The notes under the pieces are model-generated. The model made no database searches. It saw only the letters and a program-made list of their open reading frames with translations, and was not told where the DNA came from. From assembly GCA_963924555.1 (NCBI GenBank), contig CAWUPZ010000001.1, forward strand, positions 124,001 to 188,000: a DNA stretch of 64,000 nucleotides, written 5' to 3'. This DNA is from Crambe crambe (Eukaryota > Porifera > Demospongiae > Poecilosclerida > Crambeidae). The position numbers were made by a program, and so were the translations under genes. Shown here piece after piece: positions 14,156 to 60,794 of this stretch (position 1 is the stretch's first letter; each line of letters starts with the position of its first letter).

Positions 14156-14184
14156 AATTATTGGGAGGAGGGTGGGTTAATCTT

Positions 14185-17100: not shown

Positions 17101-18690
17101 CAGCGAAACTGGACCGGGTCCACTTTTTCCCCTGCCAAAAATGGACCTGTCTGGATTTCGGCAGGAAACTGGACCGGGTCCACTTTTTTCCCCTGCCAAA
17201 AATGGACCTGCCTGGATTTCAACAGCGAAACTGGACCGGGTCCACTTTTTTCCCCTGCCAAAATTGGACCGGCCTAGATTTCGGCAGGAAACTGGACCGG
17301 GTCCACTTTTTTTCCCCTACCAAAAATGGACCTGCCTGGATTTTGACAGCGAAACTGGACCGGGTCCACTTTTTTCCCCTGCCAAAAATGGACCTGCCTG
17401 GATTTTGACAGCGAAACTGGACCGGGTCCACTTTTTTCCCCTGCCAAAAATGGACCTGCTTAGAATTTGACGGCGAAACTGGACTGGGTCCACTTTTTTC
17501 CCCTGCCAAAAACAGACCTGTTTAGATTTTGACGGCGAAACTGGACCGGGTCCACTTTTTTCCCCTGCCAAAAATGGACCTGCCTGGATTTCGGCAGGAA
17601 ACTGGACCGGGTCCACTTTTTTCCCCTGCCAAAAATGGACCTGCCTGGATTTCGGCAGGAAACTGGACCGGGTCCACTTTTTTCCCCTGCCAAAAATGGA
17701 CCTGTCTGGATTTCGGCAGGAAACTGGACCGGGTCCACTTTTTTCCCCTGCCAAAAATGGACCTGCCTGGATTTCGGCAGGAAACTGGACCGGGTCCACT
17801 TTTTTCCCCTGCCAAAAATGGACCTGCCTGGATTTCGGCAGGAAACTGGACCGGGTCCACTTTTTTCCCCTGCCAAAAATGGACCTGCCTGGATTTCGGC
17901 AGGAAACTGGACCGGGTCCACTTTTTTCCCCTGCCAAAAATGGACCTGCCTGGATTTCGGCAGGAAACTGGACCGGGTCCACTTTTTTCCCCTGCCAAAA
18001 ATGGACCTGCCTGGATTTCAACAGCGAAACTGGACCGGGTCCACTTTTTCCCCTACCAAAAATGGACCTGTCTGGATTTCGGCAGGAAACTGGACCGGGT
18101 CCACTTTTTTCCCCTGCCAAAAATGGACCTGCCTGGATTTCAACAGCGAAACTGGACCGGGTCCACTTTTTTCCCCTGCCAAAATTGGACCGGCCTAGAT
18201 TTCGGCAGGAAACTGGACCGGGTCCACTTTTTTTCCCCTGCCAAAAATGGACCTGCCTGGATTTCGGCAGGAAACTGGACCGGGTCCACTTTTTTCCCCT
18301 GCCAAAAATGGACCTGCCTGGATTTCGGCAGGAAACTGGACCGGGTCCACTTTTTTCCCCTGCCAAAAATGGACCTGCCTGGATTTTGACAGCGAAACTG
18401 GACCGGGTCCACTTTTTTCCCCTGCCAAAAATGGACCTGCCTGGATTTTGACAGCGAAACTGGACCGGGTCCACTTTTTTCCCCTGCCAAAAATGGACCT
18501 GCCTGGATTTTGACAGCGAAACTGGACCGGGTCCACTTTTTTCCCCTGCCAAAAATGGACCTGCTTAGAATTTGACGGCGAAACTGGACTGGGTCCACTT
18601 TTTTCCCCTGCCAAAAACAGACCTGTTTAGATTTTGACGGCGAAACTGGACCGGGTCCACTTTTTTCCCCTGCCAAAACTGGACCGGGTC
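14185..18690 (+). repeat. 61-bp minisatellite array with 921-bp higher-order period
   Basis: About 73 units of 61-62 bp, each holding 'CTGGACCGGGTCCAC', a T-tract, 'CCCCTGCCAAAAA', 'TGGACCTGCCTGGATTT' and either 'CGGCAGG' or the variant 'caacagcg/tgacagcg/tgacggcg'. The 13-mer TGGACCGGGTCCA is an inverted repeat. The rare variant 'cagacctgtttagattt' marks the higher-order period: it starts at 15671, 16592 and 17513 (exactly 921 bp apart, 15 units) and again at 18618 (1105 bp on, three extra units). Because 61 is not a multiple of 3 and the unit lacks most stop codons, long frames open on both strands; I do not regard them as genes. Confidence 0.95.
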
Positions 18691-28689: not shown

Positions 28690-28700
28690 CGCCAATAATG
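28690..28700 (+). repeat. Left target site duplication of the MULE (11 bp)
   Basis: CGCCAATAATG abuts the left terminal inverted repeat. It is repeated exactly at 33736-33746. MULE elements typically duplicate 8-11 bp. Confidence 0.95.
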
Positions 28701-28785
28701 GGTGTGTATAAACTTCGGACCGGACCGGACCAACGGACCGTGTACGATCTGCGTGCGCGGAGCGAGGCGGACCATGACGTCATGC
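28701..28785 (+). repeat. Left terminal inverted repeat of the MULE
   Basis: It begins GGTGTGTATAAACTTCGGAC and ends at 'catgacgtcatgc'. It matches the reverse complement of 33651-33735 at 84 of 85 bases. It is CpG-rich in its inner half and contains GCGCGG at 28755-28760, which fits the published CG-1/CAMTA site (A/C/G)CGCG(T/C/G). It also contains the palindrome TGACGTCA, a CRE-like word, near its inner end. Confidence 0.95.
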
Positions 28786-30373
28786 AGCTAGCTGCAAACT
28801 AACTGTATCGATCAGCAGCATAGGAACCGATAGTCTTATTACTATAGGAGTGTTTGAGCTCAATATTATTTAGCTATACTTGATAATTGAATAATTCATA
28901 CCTCAGGCCTAGAAGCCCATGCAGTTGCTACATCTATATAGATAGCTAGCTAGCTAGCTAAACTGTAGTAATCTGTAGTCTGAAGCTAAATATTGGTAGC
29001 TAGCTAGCTAGCTAGTCTGATAGTGCCACTTGCGAACTGGTTCACTATTAACTTTTTATATTGGTAGTCTGAAGCTGGTAGCTAGCTAGTCTGATACTGC
29101 CACTTGCAATCTGGTTCACTGAACATCGACTGTAGTTAAAGTAGTTAAAGTTAGCTATAGCTAGATTAGTTGCTCAATTAATGATTGTTCTTTTAACTCA
29201 AAAATCATTCTTTTTCTGATATTCTTTTATGTGTTCCTGCAGGGAAAGAATAACTAAAAAGCAATAAAAACACAACATTATGCTAACCTGACTGAAAGAA
29301 AAAGGCCGATTAAACGCTTGATATCTTGCATACTATACAAAAAAAAATAGCTAGTTTTACTATTGATATTAATTGAAGTATTCTTACCATGCATGTGAAT
29401 ACACCACAGTCGTAACCATTTGTTTGCTTAGGTATATCCTAATAATAAAAATATAATAATAAATAAAAATTCTTAATAAATAAATTACTTTTGGGCATAG
29501 CATCTTCCAACTGGAGAAGTCTACATTGGGATTTGCCTTGCTTAGGTAATTTCTGAATCAGAAAAACAGACAATCAAACTCAATGTTGTAACAATAACGA
29601 ATAAGTTTAGCTACCTGATTGTTTCCAAGCATCTGATGTATTCACCATACATGGAATCATAGTAACGCAATTCCTGCATAGTAGTGTCTACAATAGCTAG
29701 ACACCAGTGTGCACCTCTGTTGATTGGTACTATAAATTTTTGGTATGTGAGAACATTGACCTATGTATGTATGCATGGGCATCGTACGAGTGAAAGGCAA
29801 GAGCAAAGTTAATGACTATCGTGGAACCTCAATAAAGGAGACTCCTAAAGAGGACAAATCTTTGAAAGGACAAAAAGTTGGGCCCTGAGTGTGTCTATTA
29901 TTTAGAGGTTCCACTGTATACATACTAACTACCTTGATCCAGTTGGCAATCGAATGGTGCCCACTTTCACATAGCTTTTGATAGAAAAAACATGAAACAC
30001 AAAAGACAGAGTTAAGCCTTTCAGAGTTTGCTTCCCTCATAAGAAGAAACATGTAATAGTCAATGATCTGTTGATATTAAGAAATCATAAATACACCACC
30101 TATTATTAATTCATTAGGTCACCTTATCATCCAACCAATTAGTGTCACCAAGTGTCTTTAAATTGCTGTCGTACACTTGACAGTTGTTTATACTGCAAAT
30201 TAAAACATCTTTGGGCTTAGAATCAGCAACCTGTGGAAAAAAGAATATGCATGGCCTTTGAACAATAGTAGCTATAATAATAGCTACATACAGTGGAGTC
30301 TCCAATAATTATTGTGTACAAAGGACAATAAAAGAAGTCTCTATAGCTGAGGTTCCACTGCATGTATAATCTA
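28786..30373. other. Left non-coding part of the MULE with nested small repeats
   Basis: No exon is seen here. It contains TAGC runs at 28945-28965 and 29000-29020. Two tiny inverted-repeat insertions share 'CAGTGGAACCTC/GAGGTTCCACTG'-like ends (about 29818-29920 and 30293-30360). A similar unit lies at about 4250-4304. A minus-strand 78-codon frame near 29.9 kb reads through one of these repeats and is not a gene. Confidence 0.6.
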
Positions 30374-33300
30374 TTATACATTTTCCTTCTCTTCCATGAT
30401 TTGGCTGAATTCCTTCTTCTGATCATTTGTTTTCTCTTCTGTAATAATTTCATCAGTTTTATGGTCTCCTGAATGACAATAATAGAATGGAGCAATCAAT
30501 AGCATGCAATTTTCTCTTGGACATTAAAACCACACTTACAGAAAATGCAAAACCTATACATTCAGAACTTAAATTCCGCTAGTGATTTTTTGCCTTACAT
30601 ATAGCTACATGTAGCATGGCCTGGCCAAGCAAATGTACATTATGTACTATAATGTATAATCACCTTCTGAATCAAGTCTCATCCTTTTACACTTCCTCTT
30701 TACACAACATTGTCTAAGTAATCCTCTCCCACCAAATTTTGGCTTATCTTTACAATAGCGACACTCCCCACAATCTGATGTTGTGCAACTGTTACAAGTT
30801 CCACACCTCTTTCGTTTTTTACCTGCAAGTTTACATGTCAACAGAGTAGCTAGTAATTCTTAAATTTTTATACCTGAATATCGTTGACTTGGTGGATCAA
30901 ATTTCTCATAAATTTGAGTCTCTTGCTACAAGTAATAATTATAATGACTATTTAGATTACACATTATTAGCTAGCTAATTGTTTACCTCTTTGATGGAAG
31001 TAGAGGTTTGGTTGGCTGGATTACTTGTGTCCTCGTTTTCCTGGTGAACATAATATGGACCTAATTTATTTGTTCTAGATTATGTATTCCATAACATACA
31101 TTTTTATCTTCAAAGGCCTTGGGGTTGACGGGAAAACTTTGCTCAGCACCATCTTTTGATTGCTGAAATTATTATACAGCAACATGACATCAAGTAGCTG
31201 ACACAATAAATGTATAGTAATTAACCTTTGTAGAAGCACTTGAGTCAGGAGCAGGCACAATATCATAATCACCAGCTCTAGGTGCTTTTCTTCCACTTTT
31301 CTTATCTCCTCTTGATCTTGTGTTACGTCTCAGCTGGGATAAACTAACCTTTTGTTTAGAATCAACATCCTCTAACCCAATGCTCATCCTAACTGCCAAG
31401 ATGTGATAGCATCGAGAAGTAGATGGACATGTGCATGATTCTTTAGGAAACAGGCGGATAGCATGAGGTTTCCCAGTTGTTCCAACAACTGTGAAGACAC
31501 CCAATGACTGATTGTGGCTGATTAAATTGTTCTCAATAATTGACCTACATGATTCACATAGTTGTTTGTGCACTGATCATTTATTACTTATCAAGACTAA
31601 CCTTGCTCGTGAAAATTGGGTAATCAAATGTTCACCATTCTCAGTATCTTTCTCTTCTTGCAATATAATTTGGGATGGACCTGTGATAATAATGCTGTGA
31701 TTGGAATAAAGAAATTAAATTATCTATTACTCTTTTCCGAAGAATTGTCGCCTGTAATCATTTTTCTCTTTATCCTATCCACTATATCTTGTGGTGAATA
31801 GCAGGTGATAATAGAGAGTTCATCCTTTGTCCTAGCTGCAGTACTGAACTTAGATGAAAGTTGGTAGTTTCCTAATCCTATATAAAATGTAAGCAATATT
31901 AAATATTGAATGTGAACAGTATTAATGAAAACCAACCTGCAAACCCTCTCTGTATTTCATTGTGTAAGTAGGCTTGGAGATGATATAGAGCGAGCAAAAT
32001 GCAATCAACTGGAACCTCCCTCCATCTTTGTAGTCGCTTCAGTGTCACATTAAAGCTTTCTGATTGGTTATTGGTAATGCCAGTAAAGGGATGATATAAA
32101 TTCATTGGCTCCAACACAAATCGACCAAGAGTGACAGGTAACTATTGCCATCATAAGCATTAATAAATCGTGCGGTCATAATAATAATATTTAATCATTA
32201 CCTCTGGATGTATCTCACTCATGAAATACTGCACAAAAGCTTGGCTCCACTTCATTTTGAACACCTTCAGTCTTTGCTCATAACTAGCATAACTGCTTTC
32301 ATTTAGCAAGTCACGAACATGGCTCACGTATGCTGGAATTTCTGCATGACTAGCTCCATGCTTCTTGAGCCATAGTTTGACTGCATTGATGGTATGATTC
32401 CAACAACGTAGGCGAAGGACATTTGGGAGGTGCTTGTCGATTGCCTGCATGTATTAAAATCAAATTCGCATAATGATAAAACAAATTTATTTTGCTTACT
32501 CGGTGTATACCAACTTCATCATCAGTCACTAATGGAACCTTGTGCTTTCCTGTCACTAGACTTGGTACTGATCGAGCTAATTGCTGCATAAATTCCTCAT
32601 GGCATGCTTGGAACTTCCTTTCATGAATGAGGAATAGGGAAGGAATGACGGGTGATGGAGAAAAAAGGGTATGTCGAAACAGTAGCGGGGACAAGTAGAA
32701 ATCGCCCAACTGAAAAGTGGTATCATAGGAGAGTAACTGTGTAGACTCAAATTGTGCTTGCAAAACTAATTCAAGCTCTTTCAGGACTGTGTCAAAACCA
32801 CAAACAATAACCAGGTCTGGAAACGTTTTAATCATCTTCACAAAGTCACCCAAATCATAAGCCAACTCATGCAGGTTATATAGAGCATCATGAGTAAGGC
32901 GTGATTTTTGGCGTTCCTTCTGCTGTAAATTGATGACTTGTCTGGAATTGCGTGGCAAATGACTAGACTGGAATTCAGGTGCACACGCACTTGAAGAAAT
33001 AGAATTCTTATACACATTAGCTGGTAGATCAGGAACAGAAGCAAGTTTGGTCAGAACAGAGGGACATGTACGATGAAATATACGGTTTTCAGACTTGGAA
33101 TGTCCATGAGGAAAGTTTATAGCAACACTTTCATCTCCTATGTAGTGAATTAAAACTTGGTTATTTCTTGTAGAATCCATAAGGAAATAGGCATGACGCT
33201 TGAATCTTAGATCTCTTCCTGAGGGCAAAACGATTGAAAAATATATTTTTCGAAATTTTGGATCACTGTTAGGAATCAATTTGGTCCCATTCTGGTACCA

Positions 33301-33588
33301 GCGATAACCGTCCACTTTCCAGTCATCTACAGAATAAGTATATATGGTGGTATGAAAAGAAGTTAAGCAAGCTCACTTCCAAAAAACTAGCAACACAACA
33401 CAACACAACACATATTTACCTTTGCTTATATCATTCTGGATTAAGTAAAGATATACTTCTCCACCTTTTGCATTCCTAGGAGGATAAGTGGGCTTGAGAT
33501 TTGTATTTTGCTTGAAATACTTCAAAACATCAGTAAACTTAAGTTCTTCATTGCAGTTAAGCCTAGCTACAGGAGTAATCACTTCCAT
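30374..33588 (-). CDS. MULE transposase with CG-1, DDE, SWIM and CXXC domains
   Basis: Predicted exons (minus strand, all GT-AG): 33420-33588, 32500-33326, 32202-32444, 31937-32141, 31731-31877, 31602-31680, 31226-31544, 31100-31162, 30987-31040, 30874-30925, 30664-30822, 30374-30468. They total 2412 bp and encode 803 aa with no stop. Domains in order: CG-1-like DNA-binding region at about 1-120 ('GGEVYLYL', 'DGYRW', 'FKRHAYFLM..VLIHYIGDE'); MULE DDE core with D258 (YDTTF), D325 or D326 (VTDDE), E441 (NNQSESFN) and a C-x-WNH motif after D2; SWIM finger C594-x-C596-x5-C602-x-H604; basic region; CXXC finger with C726, 729, 732, 737, 740, 743, 758/759 and 764 and the KFGG motif at 748-751. The family role is cut-and-paste transposition of its own ends in the nucleus. 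The CG-1 and CXXC domains would read CGCG and unmethylated CpG. Domain calls are by eye. Confidence 0.88.
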
Positions 33589-33650: not shown

Positions 33651-33735
33651 GCATGACGTCATGGTCCGCCTCGCTCCGCGCACGCAGATCGTACACGGTC
33701 CGTTGGTCCGGTCTGGTCCGAAGTTTATACACACC
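33651..33735 (-). repeat. Right terminal inverted repeat of the MULE
   Basis: Reverse complement of the left repeat with one difference (a GG/AG change in the GGACC run). The CGCG word lies at 33676-33681. It sits about 60 bp upstream of the start codon of the transposase gene, so it is probably also part of the promoter. The TGACGTCA palindrome is again at the inner edge. Confidence 0.95.
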
Positions 33736-33746
33736 CGCCAATAATG
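33736..33746 (+). repeat. Right target site duplication of the MULE (11 bp)
   Basis: CGCCAATAATG, identical to 28690-28700. Removing the element and one copy restores a continuous target site. Confidence 0.95.
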
Positions 33747-35506: not shown

Positions 35507-36007
35507 TTACAAGACTGAGCGTACAACTTCAAAGTGTTCAGAATGAAATCTTATGTACATTGCCTTTTGTGTGACATCATCACATGTGACATCATCATAC
35601 ATGGTTAAATTTATCCGGGAGGGGGGATATTTATGCCAATCATTTAAATTCTTTACAAATGAAGTATTTAGCAAATGTGCAAAAGCAAACATTTTGATAT
35701 CAGTACCCCAAGTGTTTATTTTGTCCATATTGGTTCTATTCAAGTAGTCATTGACACTTTTATAGCCATAGGTGCCCAAGAACCCAGGAATTCTTTGCAA
35801 GTGTTCTATTATGGCCAAACGTACAGCTACATGATGTCTTTGAGTTCCCGTTACTATGTGGGAAAGACACCGAAACAGACAATTACCATCTGCTATAATT
35901 TTTTGTATCTTATCTGGACGTGTCAGAATTACATTGGCACCACCCTGACTTAATCTATTTTGCAATGATATGGAATATTTAGTACACCACATGCAACTTT
36001 TTGCCAC
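35507..36007 (-). pseudogene. Second OTU-like cysteine protease domain of the Helitron
   Basis: A 166-codon frame with 'KIIADGNCLFRCLSHIVTGT' (catalytic Asp and Cys), the middle motif 'WGTDIKMFAFAHLL' and the His motif 'EHFEVVRS'. It is alignable throughout with the first OTU domain, so the two arose by tandem duplication. The stop at 35507 is the natural end of the polyprotein as far as can be seen. Confidence 0.82.
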
Positions 36008-36112
36008 TCTTTGTCCACTGAATGGAATCTACACTCTGGCCACTCTTCCTGTAATATTATGTTTCCATCTATGTGATTGCTTGCGGGAATGCTGTTACTA
36101 CTGTTACCATTG

Positions 36113-36590
36113 CTATCTTTTCATCTGGTTCATTGGGTTTGAATTTTTCAAAGGTTCAACAGCAACAACCTCATAATGAGCTTGTGGGTGTCTTAGATAC
36201 AGGGAATTTGATGCTAAGTCTGTTTTCACTGTCTTGTCTATGCTGCTAGGTTTGAACCTGTCTCTTTGTGTGTCATAAGAGAATATGCATGTTTTTAGTA
36301 AGTGGGCAAGGGTTAGTAATTCTATATCAGTGCCCCACACACCAGTTTTGTCCATTCCACTGCCCTGTATGTATTCCCTAACAGTGGTGTATCTATCTTG
36401 AGAACGGCCCCTGATATGTCCTAAAATAAGGGGAGCAATATCATTCATGTGCTGAATAATTTTTGCACGTAGCCTCTCATGTTGGGTTTGTGAACCTGTG
36501 ATAACAGAGATCGAAACATGCAATTTCCGTCTCCAACTATTGTCTTAATTTTATTTTTATCTGGACAAGTGAGAGGCAAATTGCCACTAC
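36113..36590 (-). pseudogene. First OTU-like cysteine protease domain of the Helitron
   Basis: The catalytic Asp-Cys motif 'VGDGNCMFRSL' lies at about 36510-36545 and the C-terminal His motif 'AHYEVVAVEP' at about 36145-36170. A one-base frame change directly follows 'CMFRSL'. OTU domains are deubiquitinating-type cysteine proteases and have been noted in some animal Helitrons; their job there is not established. Confidence 0.8.
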
Positions 36591-39230
36591 CTGGACTCGC
36601 TCCATTGCTTCTCTAAACTGGAGGCCAAGGGAGGCACAAGCGTTGCGCTGCCATTGCTCATCGACTGAATGAAATTTGAAAGGCCATACCCTTTGTTCCA
36701 GCTGAGAGTCAACAGGATTGGCTTTGATAGGGTTGTCAACCCTTCTCTTCTTCGTATTGGGCTCAATTTGTTCAGAAGTACCAGTGAGCTTGCGCTTGGA
36801 GCGAGTTCTTGGTGCTGGCACATCATACAGAGGAAGGTCTTTTCTATACATTTCCTTGATTTCCTTTTCCTATTGACCCTGATTGAGTCTTTGTCCAGAG
36901 CAATTAGGTGCAACCCAAGAAGCGATTTCACCCTTGAGAGTGCTACGTAAGCCATACCATCAGCAAATACCTTGCTTGATAAGTCTATGATAGCACAATC
37001 CAAGGATAAACCTTGGCATTTGTGAATTGTAACTGCATAGGCAAGGATAAGGGGAAATTGCTCACGGTAGACAAAGTAATTCTTCATCACCATGAACTTT
37101 GTCTTTACCTTTTCAATATCACATGGATCATTGATGTGGTCAAATTGAACAGAGATACATCTTGCTGAGATTGCTTTGACTGTGCCAATGGCTCCATTGA
37201 CCAAACCTGCTTCTATGTCAATGTTACGTCTCAGCATGACACATGCACCAACAGCTAGTTTCAGCACTGCTTCTAATCCCGCAGTGTTATTGCAGTCTTT
37301 GTTTAGTTTCTTTAGCTTCTCAGCTGCTTTCTTGTTCCACTTGGTTTTGCTCTTTGTTTCATCAACTTCGTCAGTGCACGATATTTTATATGTTTCTGAG
37401 TCCAGGCTTCCAAGCATTTCATTGTTGACTTGGTCACACTGCTCTCTGGTGGGGAAAAGACAGACAGGATTCATGTCTGAGTTCTTAAGATCACGAAAGA
37501 GTTCAGGTACAGAATGATCACTAACACGTTCTTGGAGTGTGCATAGTGTTTCCTCAGTTGGAGAACCTCGTCTCACACTGTCCAGCATTTGTGAGAACTC
37601 CCTGTCTTTCTTTTGTCTCTCATTGATGGTGAGCTCATCGTATTTGATGGAACTTTTCCATATGTTCACAGATGTCGTGCAGCCAAGTTTGTGGCATAGT
37701 GATTTTTTGGATATCATTTCGAACACAGGACTACCGTTAACAGGCTGCAACTGAAGCAAATCACCTACAAATATAACATTTTTTCCCACCGAACCAACTG
37801 TGTCCACCAAATAGTTCCTCGAGTCTCAGGTGCATGTATGTAAGGTTGAGACTGGAAACCATGGACACTTCGTCTACAATAATCATTTTGAGACCACGAA
37901 GCATGGTCTTCATTATTTTCTGTGAGGCTTTTGAAAGAGACCAGTAACCACCTTCATGTTCTATAGGCAATTGAAAGAGCCTATGAATGGTTACTCCACC
38001 AACGTTGAAGGCAGCCAAACCAGTAGGTGCAGCAACTGCACACGTCAAATCATCAGACGTCCAAATGCTGTCTATGAGCTGTTTCAGAGCTTCAATGAGA
38101 AACGATTTGCCAGTTCCTCCGACACCACTTATGAACATGCAAAGCGGTTCAAATTCACAATGACATTCGTTAGCTTCATGCTGCACTTGATGAAGGAGGT
38201 GGTCCTTTACACGTTCAAAGATCCTCCTCTGATCTGAATTCAACATCATGACTCTTTCTTGTAAGGTGAGTTTATCAGGCTTTTTGGCATTCATGTGCAA
38301 TGCATCCAGCATTGCTGACTTTGCCTGACCTAGCAACTCTGGTTCATCATGATCTTCCTTGTTGGTTCCCTCATTATCATTATTTGCCTCTCTTGCATCA
38401 TTGATCTTCTTCAGAGCCTCCCGTGCTTTCAGTATCTTCTGCAATCTAGAGTGATACTCTGAGCAGCTCTCATTGGCAGGTAAGAGGCGGTTGAATGCTT
38501 CCTCTGGTTTTTCATTCTCCTGGAGCAAGGAAGCCTCGTTTCTAAAGGGAACGAAAAGAAGTATGAGGGAATAATAGAAGTCTTCCCTCTCCTCTTCTTT
38601 GTTTGGATCATAGAGCTTGTGATTCACAAGTCTAGGTTTTGTCAGCCTCCTGTAAATCCTATCGCCATTTTGATCCTTGCAGTACCAATCATAATTGGCT
38701 ACAAAGTCATGCAGGCAGACATCCTCCAGATCAGCTGGTCTTTTGGGATAGTGGGTATTGAAGAGGTCATCCTCAAAGATGTCCTCGCTCTCTGGATTGT
38801 TGTCAGCAATTTCCTGCAACACGCTATGGTTTTTCAACCTGTGACTCCTCTTGTGAGGCATCTTGACACAGATCCACTTCACAGTGGTCGATTTTTCACA
38901 TAGGTGATCACCTATTAATAAATCGCTGGCTTCATACAAGCCACATTCTCGAGAGCGGAGGGCCCTCACACCAAAGCTCCACAAACGACTGTAAACACTC
39001 TTGTTACCACTTACCTCATTCCATATTTCCTGCAAGGTGCTTCTTTCGACTTTGGTAACATAGGCAGTGACATAATAGCTGAGAGCCAAGGAGGACTCGG
39101 CCACAAACTGTATGTCAATGTTAGCCTTCCACAGCAATAAAAGAAGGGGATTGTAATCATTCACCCTTGTCTCGGACTCTGTGGGAGCTGATAAATTTTT
39201 TGACGCTTTTTGAGCTTCTCTTCCACGCAA
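36590..39230 (-). pseudogene. Helitron tyrosine motif and Pif1-type helicase
   Basis: Two long frames (37761-39230 and 36587-37810) overlap by 50 bp and together hold the tyrosine motif 'YYVTAYVTK', Walker A 'GVGGTGKSFLIEA' (about 38105-38140), 'AVAAPTGLAAFNVGG', Walker B 'MIIVDEVSMVS', 'FVGDLLQLQPV', 'YAVTIHKCQGLSLD' and 'YVALSRVKSL'. This is the superfamily-1 Pif1-like helicase set. The frame change lies in the six-T run at 37779-37784. The C-terminal tail changes frame again near 36.85 kb. Confidence 0.9.
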
Positions 39231-40109
39231 TGTAGCACTGCATTTTCACAGGGTTCACGAGGAAAATTGAATTTGTAAGTGGTTGTATAGATGGAACCAC
39301 GCTTGACTCGTCGTCTGCAGTAAGCACTGCACTTGTGCATTTGGTATCTCATGACCAGTGAATTCAGTTCAGGATTACTTTCCTTTTCTGGGATGTGGCA
39401 AGTAATTCTTTCCTGAATCCAAGCCAGGATTTTGTCTGGATCACAGGTGCATCACGTATCCACAAAAGCACGTGGAAATGAGGAGCACCACGTGCTTGGT
39501 ACTCTTTTTTCCAAAAGTAATGGTCTACACAGCCCAAAACCTCACCTTTGATCAACACCTTTTGGAAGAAAGCATGAAATTTGTGCGAAAACTGCCTAGA
39601 GACAGAAATGGGGTCCTCTGTGCATAGCTTTCCTATATTGTAGCTGTCAGGCACATCATTTAAAGACCTGAGATAGCTTACAATGTCATAAGATTCATAC
39701 TCGGCACAGCTGAATGTGAGGAAGAGAGTTGGTGAACCATAATATTCGTGTACCATACACCTCAGATCACTCTGCCGCACATACCAATACTGCTTTGTGC
39801 CATGGACTGACTGAAGCATAGTGGATAAATTGGATTCCAGGTGTTCGTCATTTGCTCCCACCTTGTCCAATAAGTTGCCAACTGTCATTGACTGTGATTT
39901 TGAAGATTTCAGTAGGTTGTAAACACACCTGCTGAAATTTCCCTCATTTCTTTCTGCCAAAGCAAGTAAAATATGTAGCGAGGCTCCTTTCTGAATCGAG
40001 AGTCTTTATTAAAGAGGCAGGACTTTATATATTTGCTGTGGGAAATTTTCACACTGTGAGGGTGATACTTTCCAAATTTTCCATCTGGGAAAAATGTTGG
40101 AAAACACAT
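39161..40109 (-). pseudogene. Helitron-like Rep (HUH endonuclease) domain
   Basis: It opens with 'CFPTFFPDGKFGKYHP' (the A-FP-LFP-G-G type start). Rep motif 1 is 'LFLTFSCAEY' and the HUH motif is 'GAPHFHVLLWI' (about 39457-39490, two His). The segment 'CSAYCRRRVKRG' follows. The tyrosine motif ('YYVTAYVTK') falls in the next frame at about 39040-39080. HUH endonucleases nick single-stranded DNA through these tyrosines. Confidence 0.88.
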
Positions 40110-40135: not shown

Positions 40136-40810
40136 CTAAAGGTTCCTCCTCAACGTGTAAAGCTTATACTGTTCTATGTCAGAATCAGTATTCAGCTTGT
40201 TGTTCAAATTTCTTATCGTGTAACACTGCAATCCAGATATGTCATTATCTGAAGCTTTCTCAAGCATAGTGCTAGAAGCGTTACTTACTACTTCTACGAC
40301 TTCCTTGAGTGTTGTGTCTAGAGAACTGTCATCTACCTCTTTGTAAAGCCAGTTGATTTGTCTGAGCTTCTCTACAGCTCCCTTGATGTCTTTGATGTTC
40401 ACAAGGCTGCGCCACACCATTTTGTTGGTGGTAGGCTTACCATTGACTATGATATAGAGTTCAGGACTAGCTAGAGATGTAACTGGCTGGTTAACCTGAT
40501 TTAAAGTCTCTAGGGTCTTTCCCAGAGGCAAAGGGAGGAAGAACATTGTACCCTTGCATGCCTGTAATGAGTTGTATGTGGGTACTTTATTTGTGTAAGT
40601 GCCTAACCTAACAACAGTTTGGTAACTTTTGGCACGTTGAATGAACTGCTTACTCAAGCTATCCAAATTTTTCAGCTGTTCTGGCATGGGAATTACCTCT
40701 AAACCATTCAGCACACAACATGGTGGCATTTTATCACGTTTCATGCTAGATTTACAGTAGTTGCACATGAAATGTGTCTCATCTGCAGCTTGTTTGTTAT
40801 CTCTTAGCAT
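40136..40810 (-). pseudogene. Helitron DUF6570-like region
   Basis: A 224-codon frame with 'CNYCKSSMKRDKMPPCCVLN' and 'GLEVIPMPEQLKNLDSLSKQ' followed by a conserved beta-rich stretch. This pattern (C-x2-C ... P ... NGL ... P-x2-L-x-L) is characteristic of the domain between the N-terminus and the Rep in Helitron proteins. Its frame differs from both neighbours. Confidence 0.75.
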
Positions 40811-41985
40811 ACGTAAACTGTTTCAGCGCAGGCCACACAGTGTTTCCCAATTTATTTGAGAAATTAACTTTGGTTACGTTTTTGCATTGATGTAACTGCT
40901 GACAGCTACAGCATGGATTCTGAGGATAGTCCTCAACTGCCTTTTGATACTCAGCTATTAGCTCAGCATGAGTGACCTGAAGATGCAATTCTAGATCTCT
41001 CCTTCTGAGGACTGAGTGTGCTATTTCAGTAAGCTCATGAGTTTTTTCCACGTCATTACTCAAAAGAGATTCAGAATCACAATCTAAATTGTTCATTAGA
41101 AGGGCAAAGTCACCAGACTTGAGTGCTTCATCAAGCTTAGATATGCTGCGCAGGCTATTAATAGTAACATACACAGCACGTAATAAAGAACGCAAAATAG
41201 GATAATGAGTGGCAGCTGATCTCAAAATCCTAAGTCTGCTTTTGCATTCTGTACCAGTGTAACAGAGCAAGCTGTGCCCTTTGAGTTCTCTAGATTGACC
41301 ACTTAAAGCCTTACTGTAATGGTAGTTTGGACAACCGCCATCAATATTGTCCAAAACCTGTGACAGTTCATGAATTGGGTTCTCGAACTGTGACTTAAAA
41401 TCAAGTATACTACTCACTTCTGACTCGGTGAGAGGTTTGCACTTTGTACTACATTTCCATGTATGTGGGATATTACTACTAATGGTACTCTCAGGAACAT
41501 TCTCTTCTTGCCTACATATCCCACTTTGGTCTATAGTCAAAATATCAGATCTTTTTACAAAGAGGTATGCAGAATCATAAAAGTATGGCTCGCTATGAGC
41601 TGAGTGCAAACCCTCACCAAAGTCTGCCATTTCTTTGATTTTAAGTGCATTTGTATATATCTGACAGCTTTGAGCAAGGCCCCAACATATTGCTGTATAG
41701 CTTTGCATACTACTCTCTGTGCTGCCAGATTAGAAATTGCACTCTTGCGATTGCCTTTTGATATCTTATTGGATGCACTGGTATGCTCCTTTTCAAAAGT
41801 GTCTATTAGACAACAATCTAGTATTGCACATCAGATTTTTCTTTATTTTGTGTACATAAAACATTTTGGTCAGTGGCTTTGGTTCTGCTAATTCATACTT
41901 TCGCCTTTGATTAGCACAAATGTAGGCTCTGTTCTTGGCATAGTACCGTCTAGCTTTTTTTTCAACTTGTATTTGTTTACCCAGC
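40797..41985 (-). pseudogene. Helitron N-terminal region
   Basis: It starts with a basic segment ('ARRYYAKNRAYICANQRRKY', 41900-41985) and the 'AEPKPLTKMF' segment. It continues through two frame changes into a 303-codon frame with Cys-rich 'NPCCSCQQLHQCKNVTK' near 40860-40910. These segments occur at the N-terminus of invertebrate Helitron proteins as I recall them. The role is unknown; the Cys cluster may bind zinc or DNA. Confidence 0.7.
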
Positions 41986-46541: not shown

Positions 46542-49500
46542 TTAATTAAACGTTTTCAAAATTGATGAACGCTCCATTTGAAGGAAGCCAGGTACTTTTA
46601 TCACTTTTCTTTCATCATTGGGATCTATAGCTTTTAAGATATTCCTTTTCTGCTGAAGAAGAGTTTCACACTGGTTATCCCCCCATTCCTTGTCACAATC
46701 CCTAGCATGCTGCATTATCAAGCATATCAATCCAGCAATGGCTGGTGCTGCAAATGAAGATCCACTAACATCTTGTACTAGTTTGTGTGGAGTATGTGAG
46801 CGTTGAGTTGTTGTCTTCTTACAATAACAAGGAGCTCGTACTTCTCCATAACAGTATAGATTCACATCTTTTTTAGTCCTAGTATGCTTTGAAAAATCTC
46901 CACGTTGATCCAGGCTCCCAATGCTTATGACTTCATCAAGTTGAGCTGGAAATTCCATTTCACGTGTTGTATTTGCACTATTACTAGCAGTAGCCAATAC
47001 ATGTGTGCCTTTCCGTCGAATTTCCTGTATCCTATCAATGATTTTTCCCCGCAAAGTGCGAATATTGTCAGAAATTTCTTGACCACACTCAAAACGACTT
47101 TGGTCACCTGCTCGCAGAGACATTGACACAACATCAACTTTTTCTTCTCTATTAATCATATCCAGTGCATATTCCAAGTATTGGTAAGTACCTTCTGGAT
47201 CATATGTTGGAATTGTAAATATCTTCAATTGAGCATCTGGAGCCACTCCACCAGGATATTCCACAGTATCAAGGTTTCTGTCATGAAAGACGATTCCATT
47301 AAATCCCTTTCCAGCAGCTATTCCAGCCACTGCAGTTGCATGGCAATGGCCAGATTGACCACTATCAGAGGGCCGTGTTAACAATCCACTCGCATCTTTT
47401 TCCAGTAACTTATCCATTAGGCATTTATCTTTCTTATATATGCAGCAACAACTGACTTTCACATCTTTCATTGCCTGGTTGGGATAATACCCATCATCAA
47501 TTAATGCCATACTTGATTCTTCTCCCCTCTTCTCTTTAGGAATGTCCTTCAACCCCAAAAGATTGTATGTGAATGGGAAAGGACCAGCTTTACATGCTGT
47601 CAGATGATTAATATTGAGACATTCAAATGTGCATTCATGTGTGGGTTGTTGTTGTTGTTGGTGGCCTGTAAATAGATTAATCTCACATGAATTTCCACTG
47701 TCAGTACTTCCTGAGCTAGTTATGCCCCTTTTTTGCTTACTGAGATTTGATAACAGCATTGCAAACCAAGTTCACATTCAAGGTGTGAAGATGCTAGTAC
47801 GTAGCTAGCTAATGACTTCATGGTGTTTTCTATTGAACTGATAAAATAATCTGCTGACAGTTATATTGATCAAGCTATAGCTTCAAGATATGCTATAACA
47901 GCTACGTTAACAAATAGCTATTCATAATCCAGCATATGTCAATATGCTTAATTGCTTAGAAATAGCTACCTCTTTAATTATTCTCTCTATGCTGACAAGT
48001 AAAGTAAAGCCTTTATAGCTACGTACTAGCTATAGCTGCTTTATAGCTGGCAGAGTGTAAATGTGGGTGGAAAACTTTTATAGCTATTATTTTTGCACTG
48101 TATGTCACATGACCTATGCTAGTCTAGTAGTTTCAACCTTTGTGGGCGAGAAAGGAAAAAGGTATCTAAACCAATACATGTTCATTGCAAGGAAAAAGAT
48201 GTTGTTAGCGAAGAAAATTAGAGAAATTGCCTTATCCATTTGATGTATACTGAAGGCTACACAGATTGTTACAGCTAGCTATATCCAAGCAAGCTAATAC
48301 AAAAAAAAAAGAGGAAGGAATAAGAAAATACATAAGTTGCTTGCAAAGACTGGCTGAAGTAAAAATGAGTGTTACAGTAAAAAGGTGTCCAGCTGTCCAG
48401 TCATGCATAATTATAGCTACATGTAATAATATATTATGCTAACCTCCAATGGGATTATCAATAATCAATGCTAAGAAATCACGTGGTGGGTTTGCTCCAA
48501 TAAGCTTCAGTTTAAAATATAGATCTTTAGGAGAACTTTGATCGCATTCAAGACGTAGCTTGCACAAAGGTGGATGTTGTGATGTAGCATCAAATTGGTC
48601 CACTTCACTCTTCTTTATCTAATAGTATTAATAGTGTATTAGTTATTATTAGATACTGGAATCCTATACTTACCATTGGATGCTTCAGTGGTGCTATAAT
48701 CCATCCCAATTGTATTTCTTTTCTATCAGTTATATCAAGTTCAATACTTTCATCAGAAAATTCCACAATCTCATCATTAAGTGATGTAATATTATGTGGC
48801 ATAAATTTTTTTTTCAGTAGCTATAAAGGATGAATTGACATCTTTAATAATCAACTTTTTAACTAATTATTTTTACATACCATTTCAGAAACTCCATGAT
48901 CCTTCAAAATTGCAAAATAAATTTCCCAGTTGTAATGACCACTACTGCAGTAGTAGAGATAAGCACAATACCTGTTTGCAGGGCTAGGAGGATATCTACT
49001 GCCGAGAATAGCATGATCTATGTTTGAAGGGCTATGGGGTTCCACAGATGACCCACTTGTAAATAATGATGCCACACACATGTATATACGACGTTGAATT
49101 GGCGTTATTATTTTCCCATAATATAGATTAAATATTCCACCATCCAGTTTTTGGAACTTGAATGGAGGTTCATGATCATAACTACCAGCAAAAATGAGAT
49201 TATCTGAGACATGAGAGAAATGCTCGAACTCCACCTTGACAGATTTCAAGGAGCAGGAAGAAGAGTTCTCTATGCTGAAGATTCCACTCATAAGCTCCAT
49301 GCCATCAGGAAATTCAACTTTACCAGAAATAGCAGCTTTTATATTCAAAACACATTCTTTCTGTCCAGGGGGTAAGGCACTTCTTGGAATGTACATCCTG
49401 AAACCATAGCCTCTCCAGATTTCATAGATGGGTTCTTGTTTGTAAGGAACAGATATTTCTCCGATGACATCAAATCCTATTGCCAAAATGAATAATAAAA

Positions 49501-55022: not shown

Positions 55023-57437
55023 GATGGCCCCTAACACAATTGGAGAACTCATGGTGAATCGATGATAGCTATAATGGTTAGCTAGTACACAGCTCGCATG
55101 AACGACGCACACACATTATTTATTTTGCACGATTTCAGATTCCGTCAAATTAAATACCGTCATTGGTATTTTTATGAGGAAATTGTATAATATAATTCCC
55201 GTCAATATTTCTGGTTATACGGTACTATGAGTTTCAGTTTCACCAAAATTAATGTATCCTCATTGATATCCAATTTTCCTCTGAGACCATGCATGCATAA
55301 TTATGATGTTGGTGGCCACATCTTTGTTCTCATCACTTTGCCACTTTGTGGGGAGAGCCACAACTTTATCTAAACCATCTGAAGTGATCAATGCAGAAAG
55401 TTAGGGTTTGCATGGTAGCTAATAAATCTGGATAAATTGAACACTGGTTAGGTGTACGGTAGGCCGCAAAAAAAAAGTTCCCGTTCCGTCCACGTAGGAC
55501 TGGCGTTGAACGCCTTGACCGTTGCAGTTTCTACACAGTCCCTCGTGCGTTTAATTTTCTACACCGTTATAACATCAAGCGTTGCACGCCTGTTCAACAT
55601 TCATGAAGAAACGGTAAGAAGCATAGCCATGTACGTACGTAGGTGAAAAAACGTTATTACAAAACGTAGCCTTAAGCCTAAAAGCTTATAGAACTATGCG
55701 TAGCTATCTCTCTAGGCTGACTAGCTATCTCTCTAAGCTGACTAGCTTATGTTGGCACTAGAGCTAGCTAGCTACGTAGCTAGTTCTGCACTTACAGCTA
55801 GCTATAGCATACACCACCCTGATGTTCTAGTGTCAGATTTCCAGTGTGATGAAACTTTACAGACACGATGAAGGCAGAAGAAATTTACCACCACTAGCAT
55901 GCACAAGTCGATATCTAGCTACGTAGAGCTCAAGGCCTTCCTCGGAGACTGCCTGCAGGTCATCTCGCTGTCGATCTGCTGCTGATGAACGTTTTTGCTG
56001 GAATTGCTGCGTGCTTTCATACCATAAAAACGTTTAGTAATTTCGAACTCAACTACGTACGTTTAATTTGGCCGTTCAATGCAAACGCCTGCTTTGCGTT
56101 CATAAAGCGTTCGCACACGGTTTTTTTTACAACGCTTGAGCGTTCTACGGACGTTGTACGGCAACGCAACAGGAACCTTTTTATGATGAAGACCGTATGA
56201 ATGCCATTCCTCATGTTGTGCACATTAGGGGATTTGACTTGATTGTCAAATAATTGTATGACTGAAAGCATGCTAGCTAGCTATATGGGTGTAAGGTCAG
56301 CCAAGCCCAGCATTCTGGTCCACTTTTAGTGATTCCCCACTATCATGATTACTGGCTTTGTCATGCATGGTCTCGGATATGATTGAGGGAGTCATGGGAC
56401 AAAAAGATCTGTCCTGATTGTCAATTTTCATCATAAGGAGTCCACATAACCCTGTCAGTACTTATGCCATGGAGAGCAAAGCATGCACCCACCAAAGACT
56501 CGATTTATAATACATGATCATGGACAAAGATTGAGTGTCCTGATTGTTTCAAAGATCAATATTGAGGAGGTTAAACTAATAAATCTAATAACCAAGACCA
56601 ATGTAAGGTTTAAACATACATAGACCTATCTGAGTAGAGTTGCAGCACCTAGCATATTCAACCCCTGGCATTTACACTATTCTTTCAGCTCCTTGATGCT
56701 CAAACTTCTAAGAGAAGAGAGAGAGACCAAGATCAGTTGGTACATAAAGAGCAACATGTAAGGCACCAGAAACTGCAGTAAGTCTAACTAGGCTGACAAA
56801 GCAAAATGCTCAAGGTGGCGAGCAACAAGCGAGGTGCCAAAGACTAGTCCCACTGAAATTGCTAGAGGAAGATAGGCACAGCTTATAGGCTAGCTTAGCT
56901 ACCCTAAATTGGGAAGTTGTTCATTAGATAATAATTCAGGTTTACAATTTTTATTTTCATTGTTACAGCTTACTTGTAATTACTACAAGTAAATGCAAAA
57001 AATTTCTTCGAAATAAAAATGTGAAGTAGGGATGCTATTATAACTGCAGCTTCATTATGAAAATCAAGTACTGCAGCATCGAAGCAGTATGGCCCAAAAA
57101 TCTAGCTGGAATATGTATTATAACTGCATGCAAGAGAGTGAACTTAGTGAAGTGACCCTTACCCATCATCAAGTACGAGATACTATTCCTACTTATGATC
57201 CTTGTGCATGTTGCCTTGTGAACTAGTTATTATAGATTATTTTTTGTTGGTTTTGTTTTTAACCCTTGCGAAGACCATTGTCAGTCCCTAAGGCGAAGCC
57301 AAGATAACTCTGTATAGACTTGACCACTTTAAGACTTCAAGTGGTTAGTACAGGATCAAGTATCGGTTTTCAATGAGCTGTTGTAGCCAGCGAGATTGTG
57401 TCTGTTATCCCATTATCTGTTAACCTTTTCCTCACAG
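55023..57437. other. Gene-poor stretch upstream of the second transposase
   Basis: No convincing gene. 55450-56200 is rich in CGTT/AACG words with several short inverted pairs (for example 'ggcgttgaacgcc' near 55503) and may be a decayed TIR element. An element end of the TGTAGGGAT group ('tgcaaaaaatttcttcgaaa' then 'gtgaagtagggatgc') lies at 56992-57036. An upstream exon of the transposase gene is expected here but I could not identify it. Confidence 0.4.
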
Positions 57438-59533
57438 TTCCTCTTCCGAAGACGAGGCCGAGGATATTCATCGGTCACATAATCCAAATACTCCAATTTT
57501 TGATGTACCATCCAAGCAGTATTCTATTGAAAAAATAATAAACATGCTTTTGGATCCTGGAGATAAAACATTAATATGCCAGGAGCGCCCAGTTGACATC
57601 CATAGCAGTGCAACATTCCGCATTGATTTGGATAAACTGGAACATCCAGATGATGCTAAAAGGGATAACTTTGGGAGGTGGAACCATTGTGGTTCTCACA
57701 CGGTGCCCTTTCAAGCATTGTTCACTGAAGAAGGTGATGTGAAGATCAAACGTGTATCAGGTGATAATATTCCAGATGATGTACAGTATCTTCGCCGTGT
57801 GCATTATAATCATCCGTCAGATTCCCGGTGTAAACGAATGTTGGCTTTCATCACAGGTATGTATCACTATGGTTATCCTTCAGTTGTCTGATCCCGGGTA
57901 AAAGGTAGTTAAATATGTAGTACTGCCTTAAAGACCCGAGACCACCTTGGTGATGTTGCCTTGATTTTGACCTTGTGGTCGCTGTAAACAGGGGTTCAAT
58001 TTTCCTATTTATGTAATTAATTTTTTGTTGACCATGAACATGATTATTAACTTGCACAAAAAAGGGATGGCCTAAATATTATATACATTATGGTATGACA
58101 GAATAGAGCAGTTTTCAAGGTGTCTCACATTACTATTATATTGATTTCTAGATGCTAATGGAGATCTGCATCATCTTTGTGTAGCATCATATCGTTTTCC
58201 AAAAGGAAAAGTTCCAAAAGCCATTCCACATGGCAACTCAAAGTCTAGTGCTCCTTTTCACCCTACATGGCCTAGCACAATGGAACGGATAAAAACAGAA
58301 GCAAAGAAACATGGGCCTAAAGAAACAGTTGGTTGTGTTTGTAGTAGCACTGGTGGAATGATGTATGTATCAAGTGCAGGAAAGTTGCCTCGTGATGAAC
58401 ATCAAATTGCTAATGTTCGGCATTCAAGAAAAAAAAGTTCTTCCAGTTATGCTGATGATGAGTTATTTATTGCAATGACTGAGTGCAAGTCAAAAGATAT
58501 AACTGCCCGTTTTGTCAGAGATGTTAAGGCAGCACCAGATCCTGCATTAGTTTTAGCTACTGATCAGCAGCTTGATGATCTTGTGCGTTTTGGGATCAAT
58601 CCAGAGTATTTTAGTATTGTAATGGTTGATCCAACATTCAACCTTGGGGATTTTGACGTCACTCCATTGACCTATCGCCACTTATTGTTAGAAACTCAGC
58701 GTTCAGGAAATCAACCAGTTTTTTTGGGTCCTATGTTAATTCATTTTCGCAAAACTTTTTCGACATATTTATACTTTGCCTCAACACTCATTGGTTTATG
58801 TCGTGATCTAGAGCTGTTAAAAGCCTTTGGGACGGATGGTGAGACTGATTCTTTTTCTCACGAATTTGGATATGCTGTTCATTTATCATGTGCAATTCAT
58901 TTGAGACGCAATATCAAGCAACAGTTACAAGATCGAAAGTTTCCAGAGCAACACCGAAAGGCCACTATGGATGAAATATTTGGAGCCAGAAAAGGGACAG
59001 TATATTTGGAAGGGCTGATTGATGCAGAATCTTGTATGGATTTTGATGACAAATTGGCTTCATTAAAGTCTCTCTGGGAGGAAAGGGAGTCAAGTGATAA
59101 TGCCTGTACTCCTGGCTTTTTTGAATGGTTTCAAAAGAACAAAGTGGACGTGTTGAAAAGTTCTGTTATTCGTCCAGTTCGTATAAAAGCAGGACTGGGA
59201 AATCCCCCTGAACAGTTCACCACAAATGCAAGTGAATCACTCAATGCTGTTATCAAGTCAAAAGTGGATTATGAACGAAGTAGCCTTAATAAATTCATTG
59301 ACAAAATGAAATGCTTGGTTGATGATCAACAAAAAGAAATTGAACGTACTATATGTTGCCGAGGAAAGTACAGATTTCGACCGCAGTATAGATTCTTTGA
59401 AATTAATGAGCAGAAATGGTTCAACATGACACCTGAGGCCCGGCAGAAACACATGGCAAAGATAAATCATTTCGTTTTGAGCCCTGTATACTATAGGAAT
59501 GTACAGCATTTGAGTGAGCAAGAAAGTAGCTGA
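57438..59533 (+). CDS. MULE-type transposase, second lineage, 5' end missing
   Basis: Two exons, 57438-57856 and 58152-59533, with intron GT at 57857 and AG at 58151; the phase matches and about 600 codons are open to the TGA-free end TGA/TAG region at 59531-59533. The N-terminal part has 'DNFGRWNHCGSHTVPF' and 'YRFPKGKVPKAIPHGNSK', an uncharacterised region that I recall from marine invertebrate transposons. The DDE core has D in 'MVDPTFNLGDF' (58628-58630), D in 'AFGTDGE' (58835-58837) and E in 'NASESLNAVIK' (59234-59236). No SWIM or CXXC finger is present, unlike the 30-kb MULE. An acceptor-like 'cctcacag' precedes 57438, so an upstream exon is likely. Terminal repeats were not found. Confidence 0.8.
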
Positions 59534-59762: not shown

Positions 59763-60794
59763 CATATGTGACTGAATTCAGGAAAAGGGGTCACTTCGCG
59801 CAGAAATTAAAAATTGAGTTATTAGTACCACGCTATAGCTCATTACCTTAGAATTCCATCGATTCTACGCTTGAGGCTAAATCTTAAACCACCGCGGAGC
59901 TATAAGCGTTTGAAGTGCATCACCTCAGAGAAAGCGTTTTGCAATAAACGGCGTCTAAACATTGAACTTCCGGTCAATACCCAATACTCCGTAAATCTTT
60001 ACGCGAGTCCGTATAACACGATGACATCATTCAATTTTTCTTACCTCGTGTAGCAGCTGTGTGGAGAAGAAGTAGACTTAGCTTTGCTACGTAGTTATCT
60101 TTGAGCGTTTTGGTTATCTAAGGTATGCCAGACGTGGGACAAGTTCTGAAAAATGATCAGGTAAAGTTAGGGATCTAGATAGATGTTCTTAGTAGTTTTA
60201 AAATACTTAGAAGTTTTATGATCCCATCACTATTATGTTAAGCCTATTAGTTGATTTCTGTGGAAGCGGTGTTAGCCTCAGTTGGAATCTAGACACTGGT
60301 AGGATCAGGGCTGTGTTGGTCAACTGTCCTGGGACAAATGGAATTCATCCAACACCTCCAAATCCGGATCTTCTGACTTGTGAAGTTGGATGGCCCCTAC
60401 CACAACCTCTTCCTATCTGTAGCTAGCTAAATTACCTGTGTAGCTAACTTGTATTCAACAGAAATCATCTTTAGTATTATGTGGGGAATTTCCCTTATTT
60501 CCGCGCACTATGCCCATACGTCTTCCGTAATTGAACATTGAAATTAGGGCACGTAGGATGTGAAATAAATTCCGGGTGAGGTAGCTCACTTCAACTCGAG
60601 CGCTTGCCCACTTCAAAGCCTTCCCACTTCCTGAAATTTGGCAGGAAGTTAGACAAAGGACTGAAGATACTGTGGAGGCAATAAAAAGAAGTGGATTAAA
60701 AAAATATTTTTTTCTTAGGCTAATTTAAACACGCATTATCTCAAAAATTTATCTTGCGCGAAGTGACCCCTTTTCCTAAATTAAGTCACATATG
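59763..60794. mobile_element. TIR element of about 1 kb with long AT-rich interior
   Basis: Left end 'catatgtgactgaattcagg' then 'aaaaggggtcacttcgcgc'. The right end read inverted is 'catatgtgacttaatttagg' then 'aaaaggggtcacttcgcgc', so about 45 bp is shared with a few differences. The flanks allow a TA duplication. No transposase is seen; a 63-codon frame at 60235-60426 has no motif. Confidence 0.75.

Follow-up and report, generated by a model that had tools for sequence, protein, structure and literature searches.

How eukaryotic cut-and-paste transposons locate safe, active DNA in methylated genomes is mostly unknown. A stretch of 64,000 nucleotides from the sponge Crambe crambe (GenBank assembly GCA_963924555.1, contig CAWUPZ010000001.1, positions 124,001 to 188,000; "the window", numbered from its first letter) raises this question, and the combination of a CXXC-type finger with insertions into CpG-rich zones of a CpG-depleted, DNMT1-encoding genome makes it testable through one protein module. 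An earlier note, made from the letters alone, had described a gene here for a Mutator-like (MULE) transposase fused to CG-1, SWIM and CXXC domains. The gene is real, yet it is part of a whole transposon with terminal inverted repeats (TIRs) and a target site duplication (TSD) (Table 1). Its predicted transposase also carries a SUMO protease domain, and the family's insertions lie in CpG-rich DNA.

The 86-bp TIRs agree at 85 of 86 positions and are flanked by a perfect 9-bp direct repeat (GCCAATAAT). The Mutator superfamily is defined by long TIRs, a TSD of 8-11 bp (typically 9) and a MULE-type DDE core; the first two are present here, and the core is assigned from motif, order and TSD jointly and not from the Pfam cut-off. 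A search of the 143-Mb genome with the TIR gave at least 40 scored matches (43 candidates), among which the family comprises two full-length elements and deletion derivatives of 1.46-3.2 kb, with a subgroup of 1.53-1.57-kb copies that are 98-100% identical. TSDs were read for 16 elements with both ends: 7 are perfect over 9 bp, 8 are perfect over 8 bp and one (on contig C11) is mismatched. Two members of this set are an inverted duplication of one insertion, and the TSD at C5:2203766 holds if the element starts 27 bp ahead of the TIR match; the count leaves out C10:3070195-3071735, with its incomplete left TIR match, and TIR matches without a partner. On C8, two inverted short copies (3602214-3603762 and 3609628-3611176) share an identical 500-bp flank, which marks them as a single insertion duplicated in inverted orientation. 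CG-1-like and Ulp1 pieces occur together in at least seven deletion derivatives that still bear TIRs (C1:8.6M, C16:1.67M, C3:2.06M, C12:4.23M, C9:7.81M, C10:5.57M and C20:4.09M), and the Ulp1 domain therefore lies inside the element. Judging from near-identical copies with TSDs and from the short non-autonomous copies, this Mutator-superfamily family is recently mobile. A multi-exon gene with a long intact frame might also belong to the host, or be a transposase that was domesticated and stands among its neighbours by chance, but we regard this as very improbable given the TIRs, the TSD, a second copy that is 99% identical and the deletion derivatives that share the TIRs; the TSD and the second copy refute a host gene outright.

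The twelve exons of the earlier note do join, with GT-AG borders on the minus strand, into 803 codons without a stop. Its gene end at 30374 is probably not the true one: from a GT donor six bases before it, the reading frame continues into seven further exons (30230 to 29198), which lie between the 30374 stop and the left TIR and encode a C48/Ulp1 protease. The 803-residue protein corresponds to the N-terminal four fifths of the resulting 997-residue model and, ending at the 30374 stop, could be an alternative product. In the 997-residue model the predicted domain order is CG-1-like, MULE DDE, SWIM-like, CXXC and SENP1-type SUMO protease, so that one gene model does join the four originally proposed regions in the order given, with a C-terminal protease that had been missed. 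Despite small deletions and the loss of its last stop, the 99% identical copy on contig C11 (L009, 6568388-6573407) keeps 17 of 17 GT donors and 17 of 17 AG acceptors of an earlier 18-exon model. Because the splice sites are intact in L009, the domain order is kept in diverged copies and synonymous and nonsynonymous differences are unequal (see below), a chance assembly of exons and domains is excluded; chance domain neighbours were rejected on the maintained order.

CXXC fingers such as those of DNMT1, MLL and CFP1 bind unmethylated CpG, and Ulp1/SENP proteases remove SUMO. The finger of the window protein matches zf-CXXC above the Pfam cut-off (E-value 9.4e-12 in the 803-residue and 1.1e-11 in the 997-residue protein), carries eight of eight cysteines and the KFGG motif, as the earlier note had said, and among PDB sequences matches DNMT1, MLL and KDM2 structures, with DNMT1 closest (1e-11). 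In known CXXC fingers a K/R-Q pair touches the CpG. K-Q or R-Q before the final CXXC cysteines is kept in the copies L055, L056, L058, L059 and L066, and the L067 copy reads out of frame at this site. The residues for CpG contact are thus present, and CpG binding itself is predicted. The finger shares the eight cysteines, KFGG and K/R-Q with DNMT1, MLL/KMT2A, KDM2 and CFP1 and differs from them in standing in a transposase. The protease domain matches Peptidase_C48 in the 997-residue protein with an E-value of 3.3e-22 (79.8 bits against a cut-off of 20.7); its best PDB relative is SENP1 (1.4e-30), and the His-Asp-Cys triad is present. We consider these two assignments, as homology assignments, secure.

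In Pfam scans of the four domains named in the earlier note, CXXC alone passes the curated cut-off, with CG-1, MULE and SWIM below it. The three acidic residues of the MULE core are present in order (SYDTTF at 256, VTDDEVG at 323 and NNQSES at 437), but the Pfam E-values of 0.0039 (803 residues) and 0.0057 (997 residues) are sub-threshold both times. Both D columns are conserved in most of the aligned relatives that reach them, with N at the second D in L082; L077, a distant relative of the core, also scores below cut-off for MULE (0.0028). SWIM was not listed in the scan of the 803-residue protein. The motif CxCx(n)CxH claimed for it is there, with a short spacer, and its C, C, C and H recur in both L010 and L013, but Pfam sees it only when the region is scanned alone, and then below cut-off (0.025, 14.6 bits against 19.6; 0.012 in the relative L010).

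Diverged relatives in the same genome keep the domain order among those parts that remain in them. L010 retains CG-1-like (interrupted by a frame break), MULE, SWIM and CXXC in order, and an L010-like copy in L016 has CG-1-like, SWIM and CXXC with the MULE core mostly unmatched. L013 runs from the MULE end through SWIM and CXXC to the start of Ulp1, and L066 holds the SWIM tail and CXXC; L011, L014 and L015 are more broken, with the Ulp1 pieces of L015 on the opposite strand. Between the window protein and these relatives (exon 2, SWIM and CXXC), the proportion of synonymous differences (pS) is 0.76-0.92, near saturation, and that of nonsynonymous differences (pN) is 0.18-0.35, and these parts have therefore been kept by selection. 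Inverted repeats of at least 30 bp were sought in the seven loci of relatives, L010-L016, and no transposase gene lies within any of them, although L012 and L016 contain fragments that match the right TIR of the window in part. Pattern searches of viral contigs (31 matches) and of prokaryote genomes (26 matches) brought up no relative.

The N-terminal domain was compared with CG-1 in several ways. Its Pfam CG-1 match covers profile positions 12-114 of 116 at an E-value of 0.0016 (803 residues; 18.6 bits against a cut-off of 23.5) or 0.0023 (997 residues). CG-1 is also the top Pfam match in L016 (0.019), L011 (0.054), L078 (0.097) and L079 (0.044) and stands second, behind MULE, in L010 (0.1), always below cut-off. 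Alignment by hhalign of six family sequences with three CAMTA sequences (two of them checked with Pfam, which recognized both as CG-1, at 7e-45 and 1.9e-52) gave whole-domain profile homology, with a probability of 94.7% over 104 columns, a score of 49.8 and 26% identity; none of 100 column shuffles scored as high (at most 21.9), the reversed profile scored 13.2, and the probability stayed at 92.7% without the window copy. A CAMTA CG-1 structure was not found in the PDB by a sequence search with a human segment. The window protein differs from CAMTA in that the Pfam scan gives it no TIG, ankyrin or IQ match and its CG-1 score is sub-threshold.

The profile comparison thus supports the CG-1 assignment of the earlier note, but the region is also akin to the N-termini of other MULEs: the family domain aligns with those of distant MULEs of the same genome at 91.6% and with WRKY at 68% (score 29.9, the highest shuffle reaching 18.2), and L016 has a Pfam WRKY match (0.092) alongside CG-1 (0.019). 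A serious, though lesser, possibility is that the region is the MULEs' own WRKY-GCM1-type domain, its CG-1 likeness being superficial or a sign of distant shared ancestry. Set against this, CG-1 outscores WRKY, over 104 columns compared with 55; the CG-1 match takes in the first half of CG-1, ahead of the WRKY-shared part; and the distant MULEs, taken by themselves, give no match to CAMTA (0.2%). Given the likeness of the CG-1-like region to the N-termini of further MULEs in the genome, there may have been no CAMTA capture. What had been described as a transposase fused to a CAMTA-type domain does stand in one gene model, but the history of capture may run backwards. By sequence comparison, a domain of the MULEs' own appears as likely as a capture, and we keep the name at "CG-1-like". 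In the second, distant MULE of the window the N-terminal domain is followed by PHGNSK and T-PST motifs, an arrangement shared with the 997-residue protein; that MULE has no Pfam match.

The ratio of observed to expected CpG (o/e) is 0.40 in the window and 0.37 in the element interior, and it is far higher in the TIRs (Table 1). The genome has a DNMT1 gene (locus L050, with RFD, CXXC and two BAH domains), so CpG depletion via methylation is plausible. To follow the insertion sites we took 30 TIR-flanking stretches among 40 TIR matches and removed six (one from each of five pairs more than 90% identical and one inverted duplicate), leaving 24 flanks of 17 insertions. Pooled o/e falls from 1.39 (0-50 bp) to 1.14 (50-100 bp), 0.72 (100-200 bp) and 0.53 (200-300 bp), and further out it is 0.43 (300-500 bp), 0.50 (500-900 bp) and 0.42 (900-1400 bp), so that a CpG-rich zone of about 200 bp surrounds the insertion sites. 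Over 300 bp, 16 of 24 flanks reach an o/e of at least 0.8, compared with 8.5% of 626 control windows (mean 0.39), drawn from the window, other loci and distal flanks and not from a random genome sample; the Mann-Whitney p of 3.7e-10 takes both sides of an insertion as independent. Redundant flanks as the source of the enrichment were rejected, as it persists without the near-identical ones. A second query, the TIR element at the end of Table 1, returned 40 scored matches of 60 candidates, and 12 flanks of this control family show an o/e of 0.48 (0-200 bp) and 0.39 (0-100 bp), compared with 1.02 and 1.29 for the CXXC family at the same distances (p 7.6e-4 for 0-200 bp). The guess of CpG targeting in the earlier note has passed this insertion-flank test, in which the control family is unbiased, and the CpG-rich flanks support, without proving, CpG-guided targeting.

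No CpG occurs in any TSD of the 16 elements, a weak fit to CpG being read at a distance. Words of GCGCATGC, which we take to be the core of the NRF1 promoter motif, occur in 7 of 24 flanks (0.97 compared with 0.05 per kb; one of five patterns, picked after inspecting the flanks), and in flanks L021, L028, L033, L038, L042 and L045 they lie near the insertion point. CpG decay was looked for in 31 TIR arms over 78 bp: changes from C to T or from G to A affect 13 of 682 CpG cells and 16 of 837 other C/G cells, with no excess, but most copies are too young and too closely related for this comparison to have much power. In one matched pair in which both regions are 3.6% diverged, CpG was retained at 22 of 26 sites in the TIR and 8 of 13 in the interior; retention in other pairs varies, and the alignment probably matched some left TIR arms with right ones.

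We consider it fairly probable that the element is a cut-and-paste Mutator transposon with one multidomain transposase, in which the CXXC finger tethers the complex to unmethylated landing DNA, the N-terminal and SWIM regions bind the TIRs and the protease acts on SUMOylated proteins. The finger would bind unmethylated CpG as its DNMT1, MLL and CFP1 relatives do and thereby fix the landing zone of the complex in unmethylated, promoter-like DNA. The CpG-dense TIRs may be read by the finger as well, a methylated element being ignored and an unmethylated one mobilized; such a transposase would be methylation-aware, as the earlier note suggested. The N-terminal domain, alone or with SWIM, would give sequence-specific TIR binding, and the protease would remove SUMO either from the transposase or from local host proteins that act in silencing or repair.

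Alternatively, the element could be an ordinary MULE whose CpG bias comes from open, unmethylated promoter chromatin, with the CXXC and CG-1-like domains only binding the TIRs or redundant. Maize Mu insertion sites co-localize with open-chromatin marks (PMC2774946, in the part available), and GCGCATGC words are enriched in the flanks, as expected of promoters, next to TIRs that are themselves CpG-dense. The unbiased control TIR family and, weakly and through a distance reading, the CpG-free TSDs tell against this explanation, but neither point is specific to CXXC. On balance we think it rather unlikely, and CpG-guided landing remains the reading that we prefer. Several observations weigh against that preference. 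Open chromatin could explain CpG-rich landing without a CXXC finger, as for maize Mu. The p-values assume independent flanks, yet 14 of the 24 are the two sides of 7 insertions; five flank pairs more than 90% identical (insertions into other repeats) had each to be cut to one, and the L017 and L019 flanks, 71% similar over 410 bp, were both retained. As a control, the second TIR family has the drawbacks of greater age (79-85% identity to the query for most copies) and of having no assigned superfamily. The flanks of the window copy are not both CpG-rich (o/e 0.69 and 0.21 over 300 bp), and the bias is therefore statistical. CG-1, MULE and SWIM stay below their cut-offs, as given above, and structure models were too poor for use (mean predicted local distance difference test score, pLDDT, of 36.8 for exon 2 and 52.2 for its first 82 residues). 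CG-1 is described as binding CGCG-core sites (PMC13290587, in the part available), and the TIRs contain CGCG and CGTGT motifs no more often than expected by chance from their own dinucleotides (53% and 29% of shuffles). Finally, the L010/L016 lineage gave no Ulp1 match by tblastn, and no TIR was found around its gene.

A second CXXC lineage bears on how general such CpG reading may be. Among 27 CXXC matches in the genome, with neighbours checked for 1.5 kb on each side, 6 adjoin pieces of the window family, 13 adjoin SWIM and/or OTU pieces (L053, L057, L062-L065, L068, L069-L071, L073, L075 and L076, the last being the weakest at 2e-4) and 8 adjoin neither, one of them DNMT1. In L069 together with L084 (C7:13400-17986) the order is ALS2CR8/CARF-like (1.8e-11), ZSWIM/MULE RNaseH-like (1.9e-11 and 5e-11), SWIM (3.5e-4), CXXC (1.7e-8) and OTU (5.2e-12). 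L069-L071 are identical in the compared parts and all lie on one small contig. The CXXC-OTU gene recurs on this 115-kb contig at C7:16361, 56317 and 96269, about 40 kb apart, as a tandem repeat or an assembly artefact. The CpG-rich 3' stretch of the lineage is seen in only three copies, all on one contig, and the 6 kb examined held no convincing TIRs; the L069/L084 lineage may be a host gene or a transposon. More tentatively, the CXXC finger may act as a target selector both for unmethylated promoter-like DNA and for the element's own CpG-dense ends, with the SUMO protease disarming silencing, CpG reading recurring in the OTU lineage and CAMTA CG-1 perhaps descending from a MULE N-terminus. 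If so, reading CpG would be a strategy to which transposons have turned more than once, with SWIM-CXXC joined to a ubiquitin- or SUMO-type protease in two distant MULE-like lineages. It would give a handle to steer integration toward or away from CpG islands and would bear on a transposon origin of the CG-1 transcription-factor domain.

Zisupton/KDZ transposons also encode a transposase with SWIM and, in some, Ulp1, and they differ in having an 8-bp TSD and another core. The window element resembles the Mutator superfamily (MuDR/MURA, MULEs), as far as the accessible part of PMC6446971 describes it, in its MULE-type DDE core, TIRs, TSD of 8-11 bp, zinc-binding add-ons and short deletion derivatives, and differs from it in having CXXC and Ulp1 on the transposase polypeptide model. 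CXXC and CG-1 are absent from the main text of PMC6446971 (Dupeyron et al. 2019), PMC10027918 and PMC13359780, and no report of either in a Mutator transposase was found among the matches listed, which mostly exclude subscription journals and Repbase; a Repbase entry may exist. Ulp1 in Mutator elements, animals included, is already known: the available part of PMC2836005 cites Ulp1-bearing MULEs in hydra, lancelet, Arabidopsis, maize, rice and melon. These, with the plant Kaonashi/VANC elements (PMC13317346), share the Ulp1 domain with the window element and differ from it in that CXXC is not mentioned in the available parts of either source. In plants, non-TIR MULEs carry KIU among several genes, unlike the window transposase (PMC13317346, same part). 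Ginger1 is similar in that its transposase C-terminus bears an Ulp1 or OTU protease, as in both lineages here, but it has a Gypsy-integrase-type core and 4-bp target sites; a role for Ulp1 and OTU in transposition has been suggested (PMC2836005, same part).

Table 1. Features of the Crambe crambe window discussed in the text (positions in the window).
Feature	Position	Strand	Details
Complete Mutator-like element	28700..33736	gene on minus strand	5037 bp; TIRs and TSD; second copy 99% identical
TSD, left copy	28691..28699		GCCAATAAT; same 9 bases stand after right TIR
Left TIR	28700..28785	+	86 bp; 12 CpG, o/e 1.45
Right TIR	33651..33736	-	86 bp; 11 CpG, o/e 1.37; inner edge 63 bp upstream of ATG
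TSD, right copy	33737..33745		GCCAATAAT
Transposase gene model	29198..33588	-	predicted; 19 exons, 997 aa; 18 GT-AG introns of 50-195 bp; no internal stop
Exons 1-6	33588-33420, 33326-32500, 32444-32202, 32141-31937, 31877-31731, 31680-31602	-	
Exons 7-12	31544-31226, 31162-31100, 31040-30987, 30925-30874, 30822-30664, 30468-30380	-	
Exons 13-19	30230-30123, 30067-29933, 29760-29615, 29552-29489, 29438-29388, 29332-29288, 29236-29198	-	
CG-1-like N-terminal domain	33139..33537	-	residues 18-119; split by intron 1
MULE DDE core	32058..32724	-	first D 258 to E 441, introns inside; second D 325
SWIM-like motif CTCPSTSRCYH	31403..31435	-	residues 594-604; Pfam SWIM 0.025 scanned alone, below cut-off
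CXXC zinc finger	30689..30822	-	residues 720-764; KFGG motif; R-Q ahead of last CC
Ulp1/SENP1-type protease domain	29210..30140	-	residues 833-994, introns inside; His 901, Asp 918, Cys 964
Second, distant MULE	57424..59533	+	two open pieces; about 27% identical in shared part; outside the element
Control TIR element	59763-60794		about 1 kb; 40-bp inverted ends (95%)

Elsewhere in the window, the minus strand carries an OTU protease (1.1e-5) with PIF1 helicase pieces (best 1.2e-16) at 35507-39245 and DUF6570 at 40139-40822, probably a Helitron, and a subtilase domain (9.1e-25) at 46545-47771. A reverse transcriptase domain (2.4e-24) lies on the plus strand at 53638-54315. Long overlapping open frames on both strands at 14158-18564 (GC 51-52%), with only odd low-complexity Pfam matches, probably reflect a tandem repeat.

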